DNA from: Streptomyces sp. NBC_00620
GTDB lineage: Bacteria; Actinomycetota; Actinomycetes; Streptomycetales; Streptomycetaceae
Length of the DNA stretch: 64,000 nucleotides
Reading direction: 5' to 3'
Assembly (NCBI RefSeq): GCF_026341825.1
Contig: NZ_JAPENY010000002.1
Location: 1,178,001-1,242,000, forward strand
Shown: positions 44,486 to 56,142 of the stretch, piece after piece
Numbering within the stretch: position 1 is the stretch's first letter
Layout of the letters: each line of letters begins with the position of its first letter
Notes under the pieces: generated by a model
What the model saw: the letters and a program-made list of their open reading frames with translations, nothing else
Told to the model about the DNA's origin: nothing
Databases searched by the model: none
Translations under genes and position numbers: made by a program

Positions 44486-44802
44486 CGCGAGCCGTCGCAG
44501 GAGGGTCGGAGGAGGGCTGCCCCCGGCTCTCTCCCACCGGCTCGCCAAGCCGCGTACGGCTGCTGAAAGAGGCTCTGCGCAACCATCGAAAGGCCCCGCG
44601 CAACGATCATGCGCCGAGCCCCGATGAACGCAACGATCTTGCGGAGACGCGCAAGGTTGCTGCATTACGCCCGCGAAGCCCGGACTCATAGGGTCAATCG
44701 CTGTACTTAGTGTGGCGGGGACTCCGCTCGGCGGGTCCCTGCTGTCAGGGGTGCCGCCGGTCTCCGCCTTTTCCGACCGGCAGCGATGAAGGAGCCACCC
44801 GC
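44486..44802. other. Intergenic region before the amino-acid permease gene
   Basis: 317 bp without a gene. The left part is G/C-rich and shows nothing notable. The middle carries four GCAA(C/G) sites (44579, 44600, 44630, 44651; see the separate entry). GAAGGAG (44788-44794) is the ribosome site of the permease gene. Confidence 0.75.
44576..44664. promoter_or_regulatory. Phased GCAAC array, candidate Lrp/AsnC operator
   Basis: Four related sites have GCAA(C/G) cores at 44579, 44600, 44630 and 44651, that is 21, 30 and 21 bp apart or about 2, 3 and 2 helical turns. The third, CGCAACGATCTTGCG (44629-44643), is a near-perfect palindrome, and the second is GCGCAACGATCATGCG. Lrp-type proteins bind such phased, degenerate palindromes, and an Lrp gene lies directly after the permease. 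Confidence 0.62.
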
Positions 44803-46269
44803 GTGCTCGACCAAGGCGCACCCCCGCAGTCCCGCACCTCGCCCGCCCCGCCGTCCCCGGGCATCGGCGCGCGCCTCATGCGCCGCAAGCCCGTGGAACG
44901 TCTGGTCGCCGAGGGTGGCCAGGGCGAGGGAGGCTCGCTCCGGCGCTCCCTCGGACTGTGGCAGCTGACGATGATCAGCATCGGCGCCACCCTCGGCACC
45001 GGCATCTTCGTCGTCCTCGGCGAGGCCGTCCCGAAGGCCGGCCCCGCAGTCACCCTCTCCTTCGTGATCGCCGGCCTCACGGCGCTGTTCTCCGCCCTCT
45101 CGTACGCCGAGCTGGCGGGCACCATCCCGGTCGCCGGGTCCTCGTACTCGTACGCGTACGCAACGATGGGCGAGCTGATCGCCTGGATCTGCGGCTGGTG
45201 TCTGGTCCTGGAGTACGGCGTCTCGGTCGCTGCCGTGGCCGTCGGCTGGGGCGAGTACCTCAACGAGCTGCTCGACGGGACCATCGGCGTCACCATCCCC
45301 GACGCGCTCTCCGCGCCGCCCGGCGACGGGGGCATCTTCAACCTGCCCGCGCTGATCGTCGTGCTGCTCGCGATGGCGTTCCTGCTCGGCGGCGCCCGTG
45401 AGTCGGCCCGCGCCAACACGATCATGGTCGTGGTGAAGATCGCCGCGCTGCTGCTGTTCTGCGCGATCGGCATCCAGGGCTTCCGCTCCGGCAACTACGA
45501 GAGCTTCATGCCGCTCGGCATGGCGGGTGTCAGCGCCGCCGGGGCCACACTCTTCTTCTCGTACATCGGCTTCGACGCCGCCTCCACGGCCGGCGAGGAG
45601 GCGACGAACGCGCAGCGCGACCTGCCGCGCGCCATCATGCTCTCGCTGATCATCGTCACGGCGCTGTACGTCCTCGTCGCGGCCGTCGCTGTCGGCGCGA
45701 TGCCCTGGCAGCGGTTCACCGACTCGGAGGCGGCGCTCTCCGGGATCATGAAGGACGTCACGGGCGACGCCTTCTGGGGCACGCTGCTTGCCGCCGGTGC
45801 CGTCATCGCCATCGCCAGCGTCGTCCTGACCGTGCTCTACGGCCAGACCCGCATCCTCTTCGCCATGTCCCGCGACGGGCTCGTGCCCAAGGTGTTCTCG
45901 CGCGTTCACCCGAAGAGCGGTGTGCCCCGTGCCAACACCCTCATCGTGTCGGTGTTCTGCGGAGTGCTCGCCGCCGCGATCCCGCTCGGCCAGCTCGCCG
46001 ACGCCACCAGCATCGGCACGCTCTTCGCCTTCGCGCTGGTCAACATCGCGGTCGTGGTGCTGCGCCGGACCCGTCCCGAGATGCCCCGAACGTTCCGGGT
46101 GCCGCTGTCGCCGGTGCTGCCCGCCCTCGGCTTCGCCTTCTGCGTCTGGATGATGGGCAGCCTCGACACCGTCACCTGGGTGGTCTTCGGGGTCTGGATG
46201 GCCGTGGGGCTCGTGTTCTACTTCAGTTACGGCTACCGCCGGTCCCGTATCGCCACCGTAGAGAAGTGA
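44803..46269 (+). CDS. APC family amino-acid permease (cationic type)
   Basis: A 488-aa membrane protein with about 12 transmembrane segments. The N-terminal APC signature IGATLGTGIFVVLGEAVPKA is at about 63-82, GSSYSYAYATMGELIAWICG follows, and the segment FFSYIGFDAASTAGEEATNA matches the cationic amino-acid transporter (CAT) branch. The GTG at 44803 has GAAGGAG (44788-44794) 8 nt upstream; the frame opens earlier but without membrane or family sequence. It is followed 10 nt after the stop by an Lrp/AsnC regulator that probably controls it. The substrate is likely an amino acid; which one is unknown. Confidence 0.9.
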   Translation: MLDQGAPPQSRTSPAPPSPGIGARLMRRKPVERLVAEGGQGEGGSLRRSLGLWQLTMISIGATLGTGIFVVLGEAVPKAGPAVTLSFVIAGLTALFSALSYAELAGTIPVAGSSYSYAYATMGELIAWICGWCLVLEYGVSVAAVAVGWGEYLNELLDGTIGVTIPDALSAPPGDGGIFNLPALIVVLLAMAFLLGGARESARANTIMVVVKIAALLLFCAIGIQGFRSGNYESFMPLGMAGVSAAGATLFFSYIGFDAASTAGEEATNAQRDLPRAIMLSLIIVTALYVLVAAVAVGAMPWQRFTDSEAALSGIMKDVTGDAFWGTLLAAGAVIAIASVVLTVLYGQTRILFAMSRDGLVPKVFSRVHPKSGVPRANTLIVSVFCGVLAAAIPLGQLADATSIGTLFAFALVNIAVVVLRRTRPEMPRTFRVPLSPVLPALGFAFCVWMMGSLDTVTWVVFGVWMAVGLVFYFSYGYRRSRIATVEK

Positions 46270-46279
46270 ACCACCCGCA

Positions 46280-46732
46280 GTGCTGAACGATCTCGACGAA
46301 CGCATCGTGCACGCCCTCGCCGAGGATGCGCGGCGCTCCTATGCCGACATCGGGCAAGAGGTCGGCCTGTCCGCGCCCGCGGTGAAGCGGCGCGTGGACC
46401 GGCTGCGGTCCAGTGGGGCCATCACCGGGTTCACCGTGCGGGTGGACCCGGCGGCGCTCGGGTGGGAGACCGAGGGGTTCGTCGAGATCTACTGCCGACG
46501 GAACACCTCGCCGGAGACCATTCAGCGGGGGCTGGAGCGGTATCAGGAGGTGGTGGCCGCGTCTACCGTCACCGGGGACGCGGATGCGGTTGTGCAGGTT
46601 TTCGCCTCCGACATGCGGCACTTCGAGCGGGTGCTGGAGCGGATTGCGGGGGAGTCGTTCGTGGAGCGGACGAAGTCCGTGCTGGTGCTTTCGCCGTTGC
46701 TGCGACGGTTTTCTTCGGGGTCGCCCACGTAG
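46280..46732 (+). CDS. Lrp/AsnC family transcriptional regulator
   Basis: A 150-aa feast/famine regulator. The HTH (MLNDLDERIVHALAEDARRS and ADIGQEVGLSAPAVKRRVDR, about 1-50) is followed by the RAM ligand-binding domain (about 65-140). It lies 10 nt after the permease gene and is probably in the same transcript. It may bind the phased GCAAC array upstream of that gene, with an amino acid as effector. The GTG at 46280 matches the family N-terminus. Confidence 0.92.
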   Translation: MLNDLDERIVHALAEDARRSYADIGQEVGLSAPAVKRRVDRLRSSGAITGFTVRVDPAALGWETEGFVEIYCRRNTSPETIQRGLERYQEVVAASTVTGDADAVVQVFASDMRHFERVLERIAGESFVERTKSVLVLSPLLRRFSSGSPT

Positions 46733-46821: not shown

Positions 46822-47562
46822 TTACTCCGCTGTTTTTCTTGCCAGCGCGTTGTTTCCTATCGAGTTGTGGACGCTGAAGCTCACCGCGTCCGAGCGGTAG
46901 CGGTCGTCGGACCATTCCACCGGGCGTCCTTCGCGGGTTGTGGTGACTCGGCGGACTCGTAGGAGAGGGCTGGTGCGGCGGACGTCGAGGAGGTCGGCGT
47001 CCTGGGCGCCTGCCGCCACCGCGTCGATCACGTGCTCTCCGTAGGCGAAGACCAGGCCCGAGTCCTCGAAGAGGCGTTGGGTGACGGAGGGGCAGTCGGG
47101 CTCGATGGCCTCGACGGCGGGGGAGATCCAGTCGGCGTACACGGTGCGCTCCAGGAGGACCGGCTCGCCGTCCAGGCCGCGGACGCGCAGCACGTGCAAC
47201 ACCGTGGTGTTCTCGCGCAGTTGGAGTCGCACGGCGTCCTCCGCCGTCGCCGGGCGGCGCTCCTGTGTCACCACATGGCCGGTGGCCTCCCGCCCCATCG
47301 CGCGCGCCCACTGGGCGAAGCTGCGCAGCTCGGCGAAGCTCTGGCTGCGGCGGCCGGCCAGGACCACGCGGCGGGCGCCCTGGCGTGAGCCGATGAGCCC
47401 CTCGGCGGTCAGGGACGCGACGGCCTGGCGGACCGTGCCGCGCGAGACGGCGTACTGCGCCGCGAGTTCGGTCTCCGCCGGGAGCAGGCTGCCGACGGTG
47501 TACTCCTCGCGGTCGATCGCCCGCCGCAGCTCCTCGGCGATCTCCTCGTGTCGCGCCGGCAT
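46822..47562 (-). CDS. GntR/HutC family transcriptional regulator
   Basis: A 246-aa regulator. An N-terminal winged HTH (about 5-68; LLPAETELAAQYAVSRGTVR and QAVASLTAEGLI) is joined to a UTRA effector domain (about 90-235) of the HutC subfamily, with ERTVYADWISPAVEAIEPD and LLRVRRVTTTREGRPVEWSD. It is divergent from the ABC importer operon. A 7-bp-arm palindrome AACTTGT/ACAAGTT lies between them. UTRA domains sense small ligands such as amino sugars, histidine or phosphonates; here the ligand is presumably the imported compound. Confidence 0.92.
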   Translation of the reverse strand: MPARHEEIAEELRRAIDREEYTVGSLLPAETELAAQYAVSRGTVRQAVASLTAEGLIGSRQGARRVVLAGRRSQSFAELRSFAQWARAMGREATGHVVTQERRPATAEDAVRLQLRENTTVLHVLRVRGLDGEPVLLERTVYADWISPAVEAIEPDCPSVTQRLFEDSGLVFAYGEHVIDAVAAGAQDADLLDVRRTSPLLRVRRVTTTREGRPVEWSDDRYRSDAVSFSVHNSIGNNALARKTAE

Positions 47563-47714
47563 GCTTCCCCTCTGATTCGGTGACTGTGCACAGAGTGATC
47601 ACCTTAGTCGAGGCGTGGAGGTGACACGTGTGGGCAGGGATTGTCCGGGGAATCAGGGGTCAGGGTTTCGCCAGTGTTTACGAACACGACATCGAGGGCG
47701 GGCCTACTGAGGCC

Positions 47715-47732
47715 AACTTGTTCAGACAAGTT
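47715..47732. promoter_or_regulatory. Candidate GntR operator before the ABC operon
   Basis: AACTTGT (47715-47721), TCAG, ACAAGTT (47726-47732) is a perfect inverted repeat with 7-bp arms. It lies 47 nt before the substrate-binding protein start and about 150 nt before the divergent GntR start. Short T/A-centred palindromes of this kind are typical for GntR/HutC regulators. Confidence 0.68.
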
Positions 47733-47779
47733 TCCGGCTTCATCACACCCTCGTGCGTACTCCTGGAGAGACCGTGACC

Positions 47780-48928
47780 GTGTTCCTGCCGAGGACCGCC
47801 GTCCTCACCGGCGGCCTCGCCGTCGCCGCCGCGCTGGCCCTGAGCGCCTGTGGCGCGGCCCCCGAAGAGTCCACCACCGCCGACGGCAAGAGCGCGGCCA
47901 CCGCGACCTCGGCCGCGGACTTCGGCGGTCTCGACGCCCTGGTGACGGCGGCGAAGAAGGAGGGCACGCTGCAGGCGATCGCCCTGCCCCGCGACTGGGC
48001 CAACTACGGTGCCCTGATAGACGGCTTCGAGAAGAAGTACGGCATCAAGATCAAGGTCGAGAACCCCGACGGTTCCAGCCAGGACGAGATCAACGCCGTC
48101 ACCTCCCGCAAGGGCCAGGACCGCGCCCCCGACGTCCTCGACCTCGGCAGCTCCTTCGCGCTGAGCGCCGCCCAGCAGGGGCTGCTCGCGCCCTACAAGG
48201 TGGCGACCTTCGCCGACATCCCCGAGGGGCAGAAGGACGCGCAGGGCCGCTGGACCAACGACTACGGCGGCTACATCTCCATCGGCTGCGACGCCAAGCG
48301 CGTCAAGACCTGCCCGACCACCTTCAAGGACCTGCTGAAGCCGGAGTACAAGGGGCAGGTCGCCCTCAACGGCAACCCCACCAAGTCCGGCTCGGCCTTC
48401 GGCGGCGTCTACGCGGCGGCCCTCGCCAACGGCGGCTCCTTCGACGACATCCAGCCCGGCCTCGACTTCTTCGCCGAGCTGAAGAAGAACGGCAACTACA
48501 CGCCGGTCGAGTCGACCCCGGCCACCGTCGAGAAGGGCGAGACGCCGATCAGCATCGACTGGGACTACCTGAACGCCGGGTACGCCGAGGAGTTCACGTC
48601 CAAGGGCGTCGACTGGAAGGTTACGGTCCCGGAGGACGGCAAGTTCTCCCAGTACTACTCCCAGGCCATCAACAAGGACGCCCCGCACCCGGCGGCCGCC
48701 CGGCTGTGGCAGGAGTACCTCTACAGCGCCGAGGGCCAGAACCTCTGGCTCGCCGGGTTCGCCCGCCCGGCCCTGATGACCGCCATGGAGAAGGCCGGCA
48801 CGCTCGACAAGACCGCCGCCGCCAAGCTTCCCGAGGTCTCCGGCACGCCGAGCTTCCCGACCGAGGACCAGCAGAGCAAGGCCAAGGAAGTCCTGGCCCA
48901 GGGCTGGGGCAAGGCCGTCTCCGGATGA
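47780..48928 (+). CDS. ABC transporter substrate-binding lipoprotein
   Basis: A 382-aa lipoprotein with signal and lipobox ALSAC (Cys24 from this start). The body is a family 1/type 2 binding protein of the iron/thiamine/2-aminoethylphosphonate kind (LVTAAKKEGTLQAIALPRDW, TSRKGQDRAPDVLDLGSSFA and ISIDWDYLNAGYAEEF). The start is ambiguous: GTG 47780 has GGAGAG 9 nt upstream and is preferred; GTG 47774 and the in-frame start at 47753 are alternatives. It is the first gene of a five-gene unit (binding protein, two permeases, ATPase, HAD-EEP). The ligand is unknown; organophosphate or phosphonate is suggested by the last gene. Confidence 0.88.
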   Translation: MFLPRTAVLTGGLAVAAALALSACGAAPEESTTADGKSAATATSAADFGGLDALVTAAKKEGTLQAIALPRDWANYGALIDGFEKKYGIKIKVENPDGSSQDEINAVTSRKGQDRAPDVLDLGSSFALSAAQQGLLAPYKVATFADIPEGQKDAQGRWTNDYGGYISIGCDAKRVKTCPTTFKDLLKPEYKGQVALNGNPTKSGSAFGGVYAAALANGGSFDDIQPGLDFFAELKKNGNYTPVESTPATVEKGETPISIDWDYLNAGYAEEFTSKGVDWKVTVPEDGKFSQYYSQAINKDAPHPAAARLWQEYLYSAEGQNLWLAGFARPALMTAMEKAGTLDKTAAAKLPEVSGTPSFPTEDQQSKAKEVLAQGWGKAVSG

Positions 48929-49821
48929 CCGCGACTCTCGCCAAGGCCGACGTGGTGCCCGCCGCTTCCCAAAAGCGCGGGCGCCGCGTCGCCGGCTGGC
49001 TCCCCGTCGTCCCGCTGCTCGTCGTCGTGGCGATCGCCTTCGGGATCCCCGCTCTCGCCATGCTGAACGGCGCCTTCACCGTCAAGGACCAGACGACCGG
49101 CGCCACTTCGTACAGCACGGCCAATCTGACCGACTCGCTGCAGGGCGCCTACTTCACCGCCCTGGTCGGCAGCGTCAAGCTGTCCGCCGTCTCCGCGGGT
49201 ATCGCGACCGTCCTCGGACTGCCGCTCGCCCAGGCCGTGGTGACCTCCCGCTTCCGCGCGCTGCGCGAGGCCGTGCTCACCGCGTCCGGCGTCCTCGCCA
49301 ACTTCGGCGGCGTCCCGCTGGCCTTCGCGTTCGTCGCCACACTCGGCAACGCGGGTGTCCTGACCCGGCACTTCGGCCTGAGCGACAAGGGCTGGAACCT
49401 CTACAGCTTCTGGGGTCTGGTCATCGTCTACTTGTACTTCCTGATCCCGCTGATGGTCCTCACCATCACACCCGCCCTCGACGGACTGCGCTCCCAGTGG
49501 CGCGAGGCCGCGCAGAACAACGGGGCCACTTCCACGCAGTACTGGCGGCACGTGGCCCTTCCCGTCCTCGCGCCCTCGCTGCTCGGCGGCTTCGTGCTCC
49601 TCTTCGGCAGCGCGTTCGCCGCGTACGCCACCGCCGCCGCGATGGTGGGCAGCGCGGTTCCGCTGGTCACCCTGCAGATCGCCGACGCCATCTCCGGCAA
49701 CGTCCTGGTCGGCCAGGAGAACGTGGCGCTCGCGCTCAGCCTCGACATGGTCCTGATCGCGGGCGTGGTGATGGCCGTGTACCTGCCCCTGCAACGACGG
49801 AGCGCGCGATGGCTCGCCTGA
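48925..49821 (+). CDS. ABC transporter permease (first)
   Basis: A 298-aa inner-membrane permease with about six transmembrane segments. The EAA coupling loop EAAQNNGATSTQYWRHVALP (about 193-212) contacts the ATPase. It resembles permease subunits of spermidine/2-aminoethylphosphonate-type importers. The ATG at 48925 overlaps the binding-protein stop (ATGA); codons upstream in this frame lie inside the preceding gene. It overlaps the second permease by 13 nt. The N-terminal 20 residues are cytoplasmic and basic. Confidence 0.9.
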   Translation: MTATLAKADVVPAASQKRGRRVAGWLPVVPLLVVVAIAFGIPALAMLNGAFTVKDQTTGATSYSTANLTDSLQGAYFTALVGSVKLSAVSAGIATVLGLPLAQAVVTSRFRALREAVLTASGVLANFGGVPLAFAFVATLGNAGVLTRHFGLSDKGWNLYSFWGLVIVYLYFLIPLMVLTITPALDGLRSQWREAAQNNGATSTQYWRHVALPVLAPSLLGGFVLLFGSAFAAYATAAAMVGSAVPLVTLQIADAISGNVLVGQENVALALSLDMVLIAGVVMAVYLPLQRRSARWLA

Positions 49822-50633
49822 ACCTCTGGCGGTGGGCCGTCCTGGCCCTCGCCGCGCTGTACTTCCTGGTGCCGCTGGGCGCGTCCGTGATCTTCACCGT
49901 GGACGTGCCGGGGCAGGGAATCACCTTCGACGCGTACAGCGAGATCGTCTCCACCGAGGGCTTCACCTCCAGCCTGCTGCTCTCGCTGGAACTGGCCCTC
50001 GCCACCATCGCCGTGGTGCTGCTCCTGATGGTGCCCGCGATGGTCGCGCTGCGGCTCGGCGCGCCCCGGCTGCGGCCGGTCGTCGAGGTGGTGTGCTCGC
50101 TGCCGCTGGTCGTCCCGCCGATCGCGTTCGTCGCCGGGATCTCCACCGTCCTCAAGTGGGGCCCCGAACACCTCTCCCGTACGCCGCTGTTCCAGACCTT
50201 CGTGGCGATCCAGAACCCGAGCTTCCCGTTCGTGCTCGTCCTCGCGTACGTCGTGATGGCGCTGCCGTTCGTGTACCGGGCGCTGGACGCGGGGCTGCGC
50301 GCCGTCGACGTACGCACCCTCGTCGAGGCCGCCCGCAGCTGCGGCGCGCCCTGGCCGCAGGCGCTGGTCCGGGTCGTGCTGCCCAATCTGCGCGGGGCGC
50401 TGCTCAACGCCTCCTTCCTCACACTGGCGCTGGTCCTCGGCGAGTTCACGGTCGCGCAGCTGCTCGGCTTCCAGCCCTTCGCCGTGTGGATCTACAGCGT
50501 CGGCGGCTCGCAGGCGCAGCTGTCCGTCGCCGTGTCCGTACTCAGCCTGCTCGTCACGTGGGCGCTGCTCCTCTCGCTCGCCGTGTTCGGCGGCCGCTCC
50601 TCCAAAGCATCCGCTTCGGCCTCCCGGGGATGA
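49809..50633 (+). CDS. ABC transporter permease (second)
   Basis: A 274-aa permease with about six transmembrane segments and the coupling loop EAARSCGAPWPQALVRVVLP (about 175-194). It pairs with the first permease as a heterodimer. The ATG at 49809 lies 13 nt before the first permease's stop. The ATPase gene follows 4 nt after its own stop. The C-terminus is a Ser/Ala-rich tail without motifs. Confidence 0.9.
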   Translation: MARLNLWRWAVLALAALYFLVPLGASVIFTVDVPGQGITFDAYSEIVSTEGFTSSLLLSLELALATIAVVLLLMVPAMVALRLGAPRLRPVVEVVCSLPLVVPPIAFVAGISTVLKWGPEHLSRTPLFQTFVAIQNPSFPFVLVLAYVVMALPFVYRALDAGLRAVDVRTLVEAARSCGAPWPQALVRVVLPNLRGALLNASFLTLALVLGEFTVAQLLGFQPFAVWIYSVGGSQAQLSVAVSVLSLLVTWALLLSLAVFGGRSSKASASASRG

Positions 50634-50637
50634 ACCC

Positions 50638-51729
50638 ATGACTGTCACCACGCTTCAGAAAACATCCGAGAAGTCCGAGAAGGCCGCCACCGTCGAATTC
50701 CGGGGCCTGCGCCGCGAGTTCGGCTCGACCGTCGCCCTCGACGGGCTCGACCTCACCGTGCAGCCCGGCGAACTCCTCGCCCTGCTCGGCCCGTCCGGCT
50801 GCGGCAAGACCACCGCGCTGCGCATGCTCGCCGGGTTCGAACACCCCGACTCCGGCGAGGTGCTGGTCGACGGCGAGGACGTCACCCGCGTTCCCGCGCA
50901 CCGCCGCGACGCCGGGATGGTCTTCCAGTCGTACAGCCTCTTCCCGCACCTGAGCGCCCTGGACAACGTGGCCTTCGGACTGCGGATGCGCAAGGTCCGT
51001 ACGGCCGAACGGCGGGCCCGAGCCGCCGAGTTGCTCGACCTCGTCGGACTCGCCGACAAGGGGGAGAGCTTCCCGCACCAGCTCTCCGGAGGCCAGCAGC
51101 AGCGCATCGCGCTGGCCCGCGCACTCGCCCTGCGCCCGCGCGTACTGCTGCTCGACGAGCCGCTCTCCGCCCTCGACGCCAAGGTGCGGCTCAGCCTTCG
51201 TGACGAGATCCGCCGGCTTCAGCAGGAACTCGGCATCACCACACTGTTCGTGACGCACGATCAGGAAGAGGCGTTGTCCATGGCGGACCGCGTCGCCGTG
51301 ATGCGGGCCGGGCAGCTCGAACAGTGCGCCGCACCTGCCGAGTTGTACGGTCGGCCCGCCACCGCGTTCGTCGCCGAGTTCGTCGGCACGATGAGCCGCC
51401 TTCCGGGGCGGCTGGACGCAGGCGCGGTCCACGTGCTCGGGCAGCGGCTGCCCGTCGACGGGGAGGCACCCGCCGTGGCGGAGGGGGATGTGGTGGATGT
51501 GCTCGTCCGGCCCGAGGCGGTACGGGTACGGGCCGACGACACGGGTGACGCCCGGGTTGTCGCCACCGCCTTCCTCGGGGCGGCCATCCGGGTCACCGTG
51601 CGGCTCGCCGACGCCACCGAGGTCAAGGCCGATCTGCCGACGCACGAAGCCGCGTCGCTCGGATCGGGTGCCGCGGTGACGGTGAGTCTGCCGGAGCGGC
51701 CGGTACTGGTCGCCGCGCGCACCAACTGA
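50638..51729 (+). CDS. ABC transporter ATP-binding protein
   Basis: A 363-aa ATPase with Walker A GPSGCGKTT (51-59), signature LSGGQQQRIALARAL (from about 150), Walker B LLLDEPLSALDA (about 169) and the switch His in FVTHDQEEALS. A C-terminal TOBE domain (about 290-355) is present, as in PotA/FbpC/PhnT-like importers. It completes the importer with the two permeases. The HAD-EEP gene begins 51 nt later in the same direction. Confidence 0.95.
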   Translation: MTVTTLQKTSEKSEKAATVEFRGLRREFGSTVALDGLDLTVQPGELLALLGPSGCGKTTALRMLAGFEHPDSGEVLVDGEDVTRVPAHRRDAGMVFQSYSLFPHLSALDNVAFGLRMRKVRTAERRARAAELLDLVGLADKGESFPHQLSGGQQQRIALARALALRPRVLLLDEPLSALDAKVRLSLRDEIRRLQQELGITTLFVTHDQEEALSMADRVAVMRAGQLEQCAAPAELYGRPATAFVAEFVGTMSRLPGRLDAGAVHVLGQRLPVDGEAPAVAEGDVVDVLVRPEAVRVRADDTGDARVVATAFLGAAIRVTVRLADATEVKADLPTHEAASLGSGAAVTVSLPERPVLVAARTN

Positions 51730-51780
51730 ACCACCCCCGGTCGGGCCCACTCGGGCCCCTGTTGAGTGAAAGAGAGTTCC

Positions 51781-53256
51781 GTGACCCACCGCACCACCCC
51801 CCAACCCATCCTCCAGGCCGTCCTGTTCGACATGGACGGCACGCTCGTGGACACCGAGCGGCTGTGGTGGGAGGCGGTGGAGCAGGTGGCGGACGGACTC
51901 GGGCGCCGGCTGACGAAGGCCGATCAGCCGGAGGTCCTCGGGCGCCCGGTCGAGTACACCGCGGCGTGGCTGGGCGGCATCACGGGGGCCCCTGTCGAGG
52001 GGATCGCCGCCGAACTGCACCGGGAGTTCGCCGACCGCGTCCGCACCGGCATCGTGCCCCGGCCCGGCGCGCTCGAACTGCTCGACTCGCTGGCCCGTGC
52101 GGGCGTACCCACCGCCCTGGTGACCGCGTCGCCGCGCGCCGTCGCCGACACCGTCCTCCAAGCCCTCGGCGCCGGACGCCTCACCGTCTCCGTCACCGCC
52201 GACGACACCGAGCGCACGAAGCCCGCCCCCGACCCCTACCTCGCCGCCTGCCGTGCCCTCGGTGTCGACCCCGCCGCGTGCGTGGCCGTCGAGGACACCC
52301 AGACGGGCGTCAGCTCAGCCGAGGCGGCGGGCTGCGCCGTGCTCGCCGTGCCCTCGCTCGCACCGATCGCCCCCGCCCCCGGCCGCACCGTCCTCGCCAG
52401 CCTGGAGGAGGTGACCCCGGCGCGGCTGCGGGCCATGGTCGCGCCCCGTGAGCTGCGGGTGATGAGCTGGAACCTCTGGTACGGCGGTACGAAGGTCGAC
52501 GACCACCGGGAGAAGCAGCTCAAGGTCATCGCCGAGACGGGGGTGGATGTGGTCGCACTCCAGGAGACGTACGGCACGGCGGCGCAGGAGCTCGCCGGTG
52601 CGCTCGGGTGGCACCACCACCGGGGTGGCGACAACCTCGGCATCATCAGCCGGTACCCGATCGTTTCTCGTCTCGGGGACCCGGACGTCGGCTTCTACGG
52701 GGGGACCGGGGTGCGGATCCAGCTCGACGGCGGGCAGCAGGTTGCCGTCTGGAGCGCCCATCTCGACTACACGCCGTACGGGCCGTACGAGGCGTGCTTC
52801 GACGGGCTCCCGGCGGCGGATCTGATCGCTCACGAGGGTGTGCGGCTTGCCCAAATGCGGGAGATCCTCCGCGGGATTGCGGACTCTTCGGATGCCGGTA
52901 CGCCTGTTCTGCTGCTGGGGGACTTCAACGCTCCCTCGCACCTGGACTGGCCCGATGTCGAGTGGCCCGTCACGAAGGCTGCGGAGGAGGCGGGGCTGCG
53001 TGATTCGTACCGTGAGGTCCACCCGGACCCTGTCCGTGACCCTGGCCACACATGGTCCCCGGTCCATGCCGAGCACGAGGACGGCAGTGGGCGGTCTGAG
53101 CCCCAGGACCGGATCGACTATGTGTTGTACCGGGGGCTGCGGGTGCTCGACTCCCGTGTCTTCGTCTGCGGCAGCCCGAGGGCGTGGCCCGACGTCGCGG
53201 GCAACGACTGGCCTTCGGACCATGCGGCGGTGATCACGACGTTCGGGCTGAGGTAA
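51781..53256 (+). CDS. HAD phosphatase fused to an EEP-superfamily phosphodiesterase/phosphatase
   Basis: A 491-aa two-domain protein without a signal peptide. The N-terminal HAD domain (about 12-215) has all four motifs: VLFDMDGTLVDT (D17, D19), the Thr in VTASPRAV, KPAPDPY and VEDTQTGVSSAEAAG. It resembles beta-phosphoglucomutase-like sugar phosphatases. The C-terminal endonuclease/exonuclease/phosphatase domain (about 222-489) has MSWNLWYGG, ALQETYG, the AHLDYT His, LGDFNAP (about 380) and PSDHA (D480, H481), also complete. The frame is continuous. The start at GTG 51781 is chosen; GTG 51766 is possible. Last gene of the importer unit: probably removes phosphate from the imported compound. 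The true substrate is unknown. Confidence 0.88.
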   Translation: MTHRTTPQPILQAVLFDMDGTLVDTERLWWEAVEQVADGLGRRLTKADQPEVLGRPVEYTAAWLGGITGAPVEGIAAELHREFADRVRTGIVPRPGALELLDSLARAGVPTALVTASPRAVADTVLQALGAGRLTVSVTADDTERTKPAPDPYLAACRALGVDPAACVAVEDTQTGVSSAEAAGCAVLAVPSLAPIAPAPGRTVLASLEEVTPARLRAMVAPRELRVMSWNLWYGGTKVDDHREKQLKVIAETGVDVVALQETYGTAAQELAGALGWHHHRGGDNLGIISRYPIVSRLGDPDVGFYGGTGVRIQLDGGQQVAVWSAHLDYTPYGPYEACFDGLPAADLIAHEGVRLAQMREILRGIADSSDAGTPVLLLGDFNAPSHLDWPDVEWPVTKAAEEAGLRDSYREVHPDPVRDPGHTWSPVHAEHEDGSGRSEPQDRIDYVLYRGLRVLDSRVFVCGSPRAWPDVAGNDWPSDHAAVITTFGLR

Positions 53257-53450: not shown

Positions 53451-53608
53451 TCGCCGCCCACCGCCCGCGCAACGAATCGCTGCCAGGCCCCCCACCCACG
53501 CAACGGATCGCCCACGGCCGCGCAACGGCTCCTCCTTGTCCCCCCGCCCCCCGCGCCCGTACCGTCTAACAGGCCCCCCAAACCCCTCCGTACCGGCAAG
53601 GAACACGC

Positions 53609-54397
53609 ATGCGCACAGCCCTGCTCCAGAGCTCCGGCCGCCCCGGCTCGGTCGTCGAGAACCTCAGGGTTCTCGATGAGGCCGCGGGCCGTGCCGCGGC
53701 GGCGGGCGCAGGGCTGCTGGTGGCGCCGGAGATGTTCCTGACCGGGTACGCGATCGGCGACGACATCGCGCACCTCGCGGAGCCCGCGGACGGCGACTCC
53801 GCGGACGCGATCGCGGAGATCGCCACCCGCCACGGAGTGGCCGTGGCCTACGGCTACCCCGAGCGCGCCGGAGACGCGGTCTTCAACTCCGCGCAGTTGA
53901 TCTCCGCCGACGGCACCCGTCTCGCGAACTACCGCAAGACCCACCTTTTCGGCTGCTTCGAGCAGGACCACTTCACCCCGGGCGAGCAGCCGGTGGTGCA
54001 GGCCGAGCTCGGCGGACTGCGCGTCGGGATCATGATCTGCTACGACGTGGAGTTCCCGGAGAACGTCCGGGCGCACGCCCTCGCGGGCACCGACCTGCTG
54101 CTGGTGCCGACGGCGCAGATGCACCCGTTCCAGTTCGTCGCCGAGTCGGTCGTGCCGGTGCGCGCCTTCGAGAACCAGATGTACGTCGCGTACGTCAACC
54201 GCACCGGCCAGGAAGGGGAGTTCGACTTCGTCGGGCTCTCGACACTGGCCGGGCCCGACGGGGTCGCCCGAGCCCGGGCGGGCCGTGGCGAGCAGCTGGT
54301 CCTCGCGGACGCCGACCCCGCCTTCCTGGCGGCCTCGCGCGAGGCGAACCCGTATCTGAAGGACCGCCGCCCCGGCCTCTACGGGTCCCTCGTCTGA
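53609..54397 (+). CDS. Carbon-nitrogen hydrolase (nitrilase superfamily amidase)
   Basis: A 262-aa cytosolic amidase with the full Glu-Lys-Cys triad: E41 in APEMFL, K110 in YRKTHLFG and C144 in IMICYDVEFPE. The length and motifs fit omega-amidase/DavA-like enzymes that hydrolyse short terminal amides. It lies 50 nt before the flavin 2-monooxygenase gene and is probably in the same transcript. In known pathways such a pair converts lysine to 5-aminovalerate, or arginine to 4-guanidinobutyrate; here the amide product of the oxidase is the expected substrate. Confidence 0.88.
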   Translation: MRTALLQSSGRPGSVVENLRVLDEAAGRAAAAGAGLLVAPEMFLTGYAIGDDIAHLAEPADGDSADAIAEIATRHGVAVAYGYPERAGDAVFNSAQLISADGTRLANYRKTHLFGCFEQDHFTPGEQPVVQAELGGLRVGIMICYDVEFPENVRAHALAGTDLLLVPTAQMHPFQFVAESVVPVRAFENQMYVAYVNRTGQEGEFDFVGLSTLAGPDGVARARAGRGEQLVLADADPAFLAASREANPYLKDRRPGLYGSLV

Positions 54398-54447
54398 AGT
54401 CTGCCCCTCGCCTTCCCCCAAGCTTTTCTGCAAGGAGTCCGTACCCC

Positions 54448-56142
54448 ATGACGTCCACCGTGCCCACCGCCGTCCAGCACGCCGACGTGCAGCAGCCGCC
54501 GATCACCATGTTCGGCCCGGACTTCCCGTACGCGTACGACGACTTCCTCGCGCACCCCGCGGGCCTCGGCCAGATACCCGCGACCGAGCACGGCACCGAG
54601 GTCGCGGTCATCGGCGGCGGCCTCTCCGGCATCGTGGCGGCCTATGAGCTGATGAAGATGGGGCTCAAGCCCGTCGTCTACGAGGCCGACCAGATCGGCG
54701 GACGGCTGCGCACGGTGGGCTTCGACGGCTGCGACCCCTCGCTCACCGCCGAGATGGGCGCCATGCGCTTCCCGCCCTCCTCCACGGCCCTGCAGCACTA
54801 CATCGACCTGGTGGGCCTGGAGACCCGGCCGTTCCCCAACCCCCTCGCGGAGTGCACGCCTTCGACGGTCGTCGACCTCAAGGGCGAGTCGCACTACGCC
54901 GAGACGGTGGACGACCTGCCGCAGGTCTACCGCGATGTCGCGACCGCCTGGAACGCCTGCCTCGAAGAGGGCGCCGACTTCTCCGACATGAACCAGGCCA
55001 TGCGCGAGCGCGATGTCCCGCGCATCCGCGAGATCTGGTCCCAGCTGGTCGAGAAGCTCGACAACCAGACCTTCTACGGCTTCCTCTGCGACTCGGACGC
55101 CTTCAAGTCCTTCCGGCACCGCGAGATCTTCGGCCAGGTCGGCTTCGGCACGGGCGGCTGGGACACCGACTTCCCGAACTCCATCCTCGAAATCCTGCGC
55201 GTCGTCTACACGGAGGCCGACGACCACCACCGCGGCATCGTCGGCGGCTCCCAGCAGCTGCCGCTGCGACTGTGGGAGCGTGAGCCGGAGAAGATCGTGC
55301 ACTGGGCGTACGGCACGTCGCTGGCCACGCTGCACGACGGCACCCCGCGTCCGGCCGTGACTCGGCTGAACCGCACGTCCGGCAACCGGATCACCGTGAC
55401 GGACGCGAACGGCGACATCCGCACCTACCGGGCGGCGATCTTCACCGCCCAGTCCTGGCTGCTGCTCTCGAAGATCGCCTGCGACGACTCGCTCTTCCCG
55501 ATCGACCACTGGACGGCGATGGAGCGCACGCACTACATGGAGTCGAGCAAGCTCTTCGTGCCGGTCGACCGGCCGTTCTGGCTGGACAAGGACGAGGAGA
55601 CCGGGCGCGACGTGATGTCGATGACCCTCACCGACCGTATGACGCGCGGGACTTACCTCCTGGACGACGGTCCGGACAAGCCCGCGGTCATCTGCCTCTC
55701 GTACACCTGGTGCGACGACAGCCTGAAGTGGCTGCCGCTGTCCGCGAACGAGCGGATGGAGGTCATGCTGAAGTCGCTCGGCGAGATCTACCCGAAGGTC
55801 GACATCAGGAAGCACGTCATCGGCAACCCGGTGACCGTGTCCTGGGAGAACGAGCCCTACTTCATGGGCGCGTTCAAGGCGAACCTGCCCGGCCACTACC
55901 GCTACCAGCGGCGCCTGTTCACGCACTTCATGCAGGACTCGCTGCCCGAGGACAAGCGGAGCATCTTCCTCGCCGGTGACGACATCTCCTGGACCGCCGG
56001 CTGGGCCGAGGGTGCCGTGCAGACCGCCCTGAACGCCGTTTGGGGCGTCATGCACCAGCTGGGCGGCGGGACCGACCCGACCAACCCCGGTCCTGGCGAC
56101 GTCTACGACGAGATCGCGCCGGTGGAGCTTCCGGAGGACTGA
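54448..56142 (+). CDS. Flavin amino-acid 2-monooxygenase (lysine/arginine/tryptophan type)
   Basis: A 564-aa FAD enzyme of the amine oxidase family. The dinucleotide motif VAVIGGGLSGIVAAYELMK is at about 52-70, YEADQIGGR at about 78-86, and GAMRFPP (104-110) is the hallmark of L-lysine, L-arginine and L-tryptophan 2-monooxygenases rather than simple monoamine oxidases. Such enzymes decarboxylate and oxidise the amino acid to an amide. The amidase gene lies directly upstream. AAGGAG lies 10 nt before the ATG. The 14-bp sequence around its stop is duplicated. Which amino acid it uses cannot be told from sequence. Confidence 0.85.
   Translation: MTSTVPTAVQHADVQQPPITMFGPDFPYAYDDFLAHPAGLGQIPATEHGTEVAVIGGGLSGIVAAYELMKMGLKPVVYEADQIGGRLRTVGFDGCDPSLTAEMGAMRFPPSSTALQHYIDLVGLETRPFPNPLAECTPSTVVDLKGESHYAETVDDLPQVYRDVATAWNACLEEGADFSDMNQAMRERDVPRIREIWSQLVEKLDNQTFYGFLCDSDAFKSFRHREIFGQVGFGTGGWDTDFPNSILEILRVVYTEADDHHRGIVGGSQQLPLRLWEREPEKIVHWAYGTSLATLHDGTPRPAVTRLNRTSGNRITVTDANGDIRTYRAAIFTAQSWLLLSKIACDDSLFPIDHWTAMERTHYMESSKLFVPVDRPFWLDKDEETGRDVMSMTLTDRMTRGTYLLDDGPDKPAVICLSYTWCDDSLKWLPLSANERMEVMLKSLGEIYPKVDIRKHVIGNPVTVSWENEPYFMGAFKANLPGHYRYQRRLFTHFMQDSLPEDKRSIFLAGDDISWTAGWAEGAVQTALNAVWGVMHQLGGGTDPTNPGPGDVYDEIAPVELPED

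Follow-up and report, generated by a model that had tools for sequence, protein, structure and literature searches.

A conserved array of GCAA sites before a permease-Lrp gene pair and an amidase-monooxygenase operon in Streptomyces, a putative Lrp operator for basic-amino-acid uptake and breakdown

The window analysed here is the whole stretch of 64,000 nucleotides from Streptomyces sp. NBC_00620 (contig NZ_JAPENY010000002.1, positions 1,178,001 to 1,242,000), in which the gene of an amino acid permease is followed by that of a regulator of the Lrp/AsnC family and preceded by an array of short, regularly spaced GCAAC-type sites. Another array of this type stands before a putative operon for an amidase and a flavin-dependent monooxygenase. 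The features concerned are the following, in window coordinates:

44578-44591, forward strand: site A (distal), with GCAAC at 44579; lineage-specific
44599-44613, forward strand: site B, CGCAACGATCATGCG, with GCAAC at 44600; a second near-palindrome
44629-44643, forward strand: site C, CGCAACGATCTTGCG, with GCAAC at 44630
44649-44661, forward strand: site D, GCGCAAGGTTGCT, with GCAAG at 44651, a word that begins 14 bp ahead of the start of a -35-like element
44665-44694, forward strand: predicted permease promoter, TTACGC (44665-44670), an 18-bp spacer and TAGGGT (44689-44694), 38 bp from site D
44803-46269, forward strand: amino acid permease of the APC family (TIGR00909), with a GTG start
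46280-46732, forward strand: Lrp/AsnC-family regulator, the proposed binder of both arrays
53468-53534, forward strand: second array, with GCAAC at 53469, 53500 and 53522 (31/22 bp)
53536-53565, forward strand: predicted promoter of the amidase operon, TTGTCC, 18 bp and TACCGT (53560), 38 bp from the third site
53609-54397, forward strand: carbon-nitrogen hydrolase (amidase), with a putative DavA-like role
54448-56142, forward strand: flavin amine oxidoreductase resembling L-lysine 2-monooxygenase, with a putative DavB-like role

A first-pass annotation had described an array of four GCAAC-type sites at intervals of 21, 30 and 21 bp before the permease-Lrp pair, one of them a near-perfect palindrome; all four are indeed found, as GCAAC at 44579, 44600 and 44630 and as GCAAG at 44651, and the palindrome is CGCAACGATCTTGCG at 44629-44643. 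All sites lie on the same strand and their intervals amount to 2.0, 2.86 and 2.0 helical turns (at 10.5 bp per turn). Sites B and C match a palindrome of 15 bp, and sites A, D and those of the amidase promoter are mostly half-sites, as compared with a definition of the operator unit as an imperfect inverted repeat of 13-17 bp (PMC2995911, excerpt). Both promoters show, and conserve, the spacing of two or three helical turns between adjacent sites that characterises Lrp-type operators (30/21 and 31/22 bp). The permease promoter, at which scans for sigma-70 promoters and terminators returned no call, is predicted on the basis of conservation.

We compared 59 upstream regions of the permease within the genus, namely the window and 58 further loci, with L112 and L115 dropped because the start of the permease was not located. 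The arrangement GCAA-30-GCAA-21-GCAA-38-TAnnnT is exact in 50 of them, and the remainder have 30/21/37 (three regions), 31/21/38 (one) or no triple (five). A fourth, distal GCAA located 21 bp upstream of site B accompanies the triple in 18 of 54 promoters and is lineage-specific, so that the four sites noted at first are all present here but the conserved unit consists of the three proximal ones. In the permease promoter alignment the sites, the TTAC-like -35 element and the -10 element are among the best-conserved columns of the region. Alignment A1 retains 40 of 53 sequences after thinning at 90% identity, a step in which sequences containing N would also drop, and the 53 are what is left of 61 after the removal of eight outliers (L112, L115, L141, L113, L089, L096, L130 and L135).

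Short words such as these may also cluster by chance, and the four-site clustering taken alone is unremarkable, since a group of four GCAA[CG] words within 80 bp, found once in the window, occurs at least once in 35 of 300 third-order Markov simulations. A triple spaced 30-31/21-22 bp (as GCAA[CGT]) is found twice in the window and at all in 1 of the 300 simulations. Across the whole genome it occurs three times as against six times in the backwards control and is therefore not significant on that scale; two of the three genomic triples are the two promoter arrays, on one strand and 9 kb apart. The motif of one site alone is a short word that occurs often, with 121 genomic matches at up to one mismatch versus 83 in the control, a difference too weak for this search to serve as a regulon list, and it was rejected for that use. 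A chance cluster is at odds with the spacing kept in the great majority of the permease promoters and with its reuse at a second operon, and the probability that we assign to it is close to nil. As far as sequence comparison can tell, it is conservation, and not clustering or spacing, that constitutes the strong evidence for the array.

The second array emerged from a search with profile R1, built from 40 permease promoters; its top match is the permease promoter, and in many genomes a weaker second match follows, frequently in the vicinity of lrp. In the genome of the window this second match is 53466-53531 (E 0.003), the amidase promoter. Among 52 amidase upstream regions, comprising the window and 51 loci around profile hits and hence selected for a hit, the spacing 31/22/38 is present in 49, 31/21/38 and 30/22/38 in one each, and one has no strict triple; the 52 do not include loci in which no amidase was matched, such as L168, L192 and L218, whose profile hit precedes the monooxygenase. 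In a further set of 20 genomes, of which 19 lack a profile hit listed for this position, 31/22/38 recurs in 13 and 31/22/37 in one. A second profile, R2, was made from 47 amidase promoters (alignment A3, 47 of 52 sequences), and genome-wide searches with R1 and R2 returned only weak hits besides the two arrays of the window, such as C1:100538 (R2, E 0.008). Another weak profile hit, C2:3318210 (L211), was inspected and seems unrelated.

The best PDB match of the flavoenzyme is 3we0 (791 bits, E 6.6e-237), a solved L-amino-acid oxidase/monooxygenase which we take to act on basic amino acids, and a CN_hydrolase gene is adjacent. This combination of a flavin monooxygenase and a carbon-nitrogen hydrolase resembles the lysine 2-monooxygenase (DavB) and 5-aminovaleramidase (DavA) of the lysine pathway of Pseudomonas, with the substrate here being predicted. 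The DavB/DavA names are those used in PMC4980613 (excerpt).

The permease scores 611.6 bits against TIGR00909 (cutoff 556.8) and stays below the cutoffs of BcaP and of the cationic permease family TIGR00906; its best PDB match is 5oqt, followed by the cationic transporters 9uat and 9fqt. Membership of the regulator in the Lrp/AsnC family is indicated by PF13404 (AsnC-type helix-turn-helix, 2.9e-16) and PF01037 (AsnC_trans_reg, 1.1e-13), both above their gathering scores, and the stretch AVKRRVDR in its helix-turn-helix is common to the array-linked homologues examined (L205, L206, L207, L278 and L338). Of the 121 genomes sampled from the genus, 118 have a match at E <= 1e-40, which reaches orthologue level (>=78% identity) in 116 and only about 55% in G028 and G120; the regulator is thus nearly ubiquitous in this sample.

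In 80 of the 116 orthologue genomes the lrp locus was examined, and 60 of these loci have the permease in front of lrp. At the other 20 no array was recognised in front of lrp except at L082 (genome G110), in which the permease has been deleted to a short remnant and the promoter array is kept upstream of lrp. In the window the permease gene closes with GTGTTCTACTTC (46213-46224), and by eye a similar stretch, NTGKTCTACT, precedes lrp at 18 of the 20 permease-less loci, possibly as a promoter or operator belonging to lrp itself.

In nearly all 121 genomes the monooxygenase (E <= 1e-150) is present or missing together with the Lrp orthologue (both in 115, neither in 4, Lrp only in G073, monooxygenase only in G028; Fisher 2.9e-6, ignoring phylogeny), with G050, G073, G079 and G028 being fragmented or incomplete assemblies. 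Their starts are less than 14 kb apart in 26 of 27 single-contig genomes having both genes, G012 being the exception at about 2 Mb. The catabolic operon carries the 31/21-22 triple in all 14 permease-less genomes looked at (of the 20), which indicates that the array follows the target genes and that lrp keeps this target after loss of the permease.

We contend that the array is in all probability the operator of the adjacent Lrp, through which basic-amino-acid uptake and breakdown would be controlled, probably by activation and with lysine as the favoured signal. Lrp dimers would occupy the three same-strand sites (the fourth as well in this lineage), about three and two helical turns apart along the same face of the double helix, and the complex, possibly an octamer as the first-pass annotation suggested, probably bends or wraps about 60-90 bp. 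A poor -35-like element follows immediately after the end of site D, and the -10 element (TAnnnT) is about 38 bp from this site; the bound complex would contact RNA polymerase, most likely activating transcription when a basic amino acid is bound. Activation is favoured because of this location of site D and its near-constant distance to the -10. As judged from gene content, the ligand is likely to be a basic amino acid; lysine is favoured because the monooxygenase resembles 3we0, with the substrates assumed above, and arginine is possible. Since the same type of element precedes the amidase-monooxygenase operon, a single Lrp would couple import with oxidative breakdown. The amino-acid-responsive uptake switch proposed in the first-pass annotation is in keeping with the conserved element and with the permease as its target by comparison, but uptake alone is too narrow, given the sister array before the catabolic operon (53609-56142).

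Searching genomes of the class with R2 at E <= 1e-4 revealed matches in 59 of 296 genomes, 31 of them outside the genus, and all 31 were examined. An Lrp homologue (49-66% identity) lies within about 1.1 kb of 26 of these arrays, and dimethylargininase and/or ornithine aminotransferase genes are downstream of 28; one further array (L348) has ornithine cyclodeaminase instead, and the 5-kb regions of L346 and L349, without a match to the seven query proteins, were counted as misses. The strict triple is present in 24 of the 31, L349 included, mostly as 31/22 or 31/21. At L278, from another family of the order, Lrp is followed by three sites at 31/21 and then by ornithine aminotransferase. Going by gene neighbourhoods, the array outside the genus accompanies arginine/ornithine genes.

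The genome of the window also encodes a paralogous Lrp (G000:C3:1530128-1530556, L207; 55% identity), located ahead of dimethylargininase and ornithine aminotransferase, gene names that were taken from a relative in G027. Its promoter has CGCAG sites at a 21-bp interval with TACCG 38 bp further on, scores 14.7 bits in a direct R2 search and is absent from the genome-wide R2 list. The paralogue hence forms a roc-type module, in the sense of an Lrp gene adjoining these two genes; the Lrp of the window does not, its neighbours being the permease and, 7 kb on, the amidase-monooxygenase pair. Among 80 homologues chosen by similarity to the Lrp of L338, whose records are nearly all mycobacterial, an R2 match lies upstream of lrp in 65 (E <= 1) and a 30/22 spacing, with a loose word, in 59. 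In a tree of 39 chosen Lrps the window type groups (97/91 support) with Lrps that are linked to dimethylargininase in two other families, and it lies apart from the paralogue of its own genus that has this linkage.

These neighbourhoods also bear on the identity of the binding protein. A GntR/UTRA regulator gene (46822-47562, reverse strand) is located near lrp, binding by Lrp is itself a prediction, and this regulator or an unlinked one could occupy the array instead. Such a regulator is hard to reconcile with the Lrp homologues next to most arrays outside the genus or with a paralogous Lrp that has a paralogous array, and we judge it improbable. The GntR/UTRA gene opens the segment between lrp and the second target (46822-53256), which also contains a probable ATP-binding cassette importer gene set and an open reading frame (51766-53256) that by eye looks like a HAD-type phosphatase fused to an endonuclease/phosphatase-like domain.

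Besides the genome-wide counts of the triple and of the single motif given above, several results weigh against the preferred reading. At permease-less loci of the genus lrp's own upstream region is without the array, which makes autoregulation through it unlikely in the genus. Six of the 20 further genomes have no strict triple before the catabolic genes, some being degenerate by eye, and no array was found at the distant monooxygenase of G012. Among nine Lrp loci at the level of the order, an array is found only at L278. In another genus of this order (f3 g4) the amidase-monooxygenase pair is present in 10 of 10 genomes (monooxygenase identity 68-71%), the array precedes it in none of the ten, with a lone weak match (L444) elsewhere, and the nearest Lrps (57-58%) of six genomes have no array beside them. 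Because this genus has the operon without the array, the tie between array and amidase-monooxygenase is demonstrated only in the genus of the window; the odds for the tie between array and Lrp are unchanged, since that tie rests on other loci. The overall pattern fits recruitment of the amidase-monooxygenase operon into an older Lrp regulon. The f3 g4 loci (L436-L445) share a stretch like CACCACGGCGAGATGCG before the gene instead, perhaps the site of another regulator.

The last adverse point concerns the sign of regulation: PMC8707732 (excerpt) cites a paper on a mycobacterial Lrp/AsnC protein, the title of which names a sensor and transcriptional repressor of the arginase pathway. Operator and regulator would then be the same, with Lrp repressing and the amino acid relieving, or with Lrp doing both. 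The more than 20-fold induction by arginine of the M. tuberculosis roc cluster beside Rv2324 fits either sign (PMC4569260, excerpt). Repression is harder to reconcile with sites that lie upstream of the predicted -35 rather than over the -10 or the start, at a near-fixed distance to the -10, or with the poor -35-like element of the permease, and activating archaeal Lrp sites are likewise placed just upstream of the promoter according to a review (PMC2995911, excerpt). We consider repression possible but unlikely, and retain activation by Lrp as the preferred sign.

Control of the permease mainly at the RNA level, by a leader hairpin to which the array would be secondary, is suggested by an inverted repeat at about 44714-44743 and by a mean folding z of -1.33 over 57 leaders, 21 of which fall below -1.5. 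Yet no Rfam family is above its gathering score, the consensus fold is weak (-1.14 kcal/mol) and the hairpin is modest relative to shuffles, so that this explanation appears very improbable beside regulation through the array. The hairpin is retained in several relatives, in which the stem bases vary.

That Lrp sites may be separated by two or three turns of the helix is already on record for the family (PMC2995911, excerpt), and a periodicity of 30-31 bp is mentioned in PMC8707732 (excerpt). The geometry of the array is therefore already known for Lrp operators, of which it would be a further example, with a layout that is uncommonly rigid and shared by many loci. The archaeal regulators Ss-LrpB, FL11, LysM and Ptr2 are Lrp-family proteins with regularly spaced sites, and among the PDB matches of the window's Lrp is PH1519, presumably FL11 itself (its entry 2zny is given in a review as the FL11-arginine structure); these systems differ, however, in their distant sequence, their archaeal promoters and the description of FL11 as a global repressor. 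A further likeness is to the mycobacterial roc module of the type of Rv2324, a regulator which we take to be of the Lrp/AsnC type. Mycobacterial Lrp homologues carry a 30/22 array upstream; the Lrp of the window is instead linked to a permease and an amidase-monooxygenase pair, and the orientation differs. In M. tuberculosis the regulator gene, termed 'transcriptional regulator', is located beside Rv2323c (annotated as dimethylargininase), ornithine aminotransferase and the permease gene rocE, and Rv2324 itself is induced 6-fold by arginine (PMC4569260, excerpt).

SCAB_Lrp2 and SSP_Lrp are likewise Lrp-family regulators of Streptomyces. The published site of SCAB_Lrp2, GTCCACGTCCCCGTCGAC, is unlike GCGCAACGAATC (PMC11609053, excerpt), and for SSP_Lrp a consensus 5'-YAGHAWATTWTDCTR-3' in promoters is indicated (PMC6379999, excerpt). 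Our literature searches found no description of this regulon, a text search for the motif GCGCAACGA gave nothing on actinomycete regulation among the titles listed, and the excerpts of PMC3293853 and PMC9397018 contain nothing on this locus.

A second monooxygenase copy, 62-64% identical to that of the window, is found in seven of the 121 genomes (G031, G035, G055, G058, G064, G096 and G106), and it may be a polyketide starter-unit enzyme of the arginine monooxygenase type. According to an excerpt of PMC5082578, the azalomycin starter unit in a Streptomyces is supplied by arginine monooxygenase, S. lividans is said to have no such enzyme, and arginine-derived starter units go into some Streptomyces polyketides. 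The switch described here could consequently affect precursor supply.

These results would provide a defined operator and regulon for an Lrp regulator and would link the uptake of basic amino acids with their catabolism by way of a monooxygenase, and the two promoters together with the paralogous one offer natural replicates for the question of Lrp spacing. More tentatively, and with doubts that we think outweigh its appeal, the layout may be a class-wide activator platform, in which three Lrp dimers on sites about 31/22 bp apart, some 38 bp from the -10, have been retained throughout the actinomycetes to serve arginine/ornithine catabolism, and from which an Lrp copy in the genus carried the same grammar to a probable lysine uptake-monooxygenase pathway that is array-less in a neighbouring genus. 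If this were true, the fixed promoter register would be a heritable code within which ligand specificity has been swapped between paralogues.
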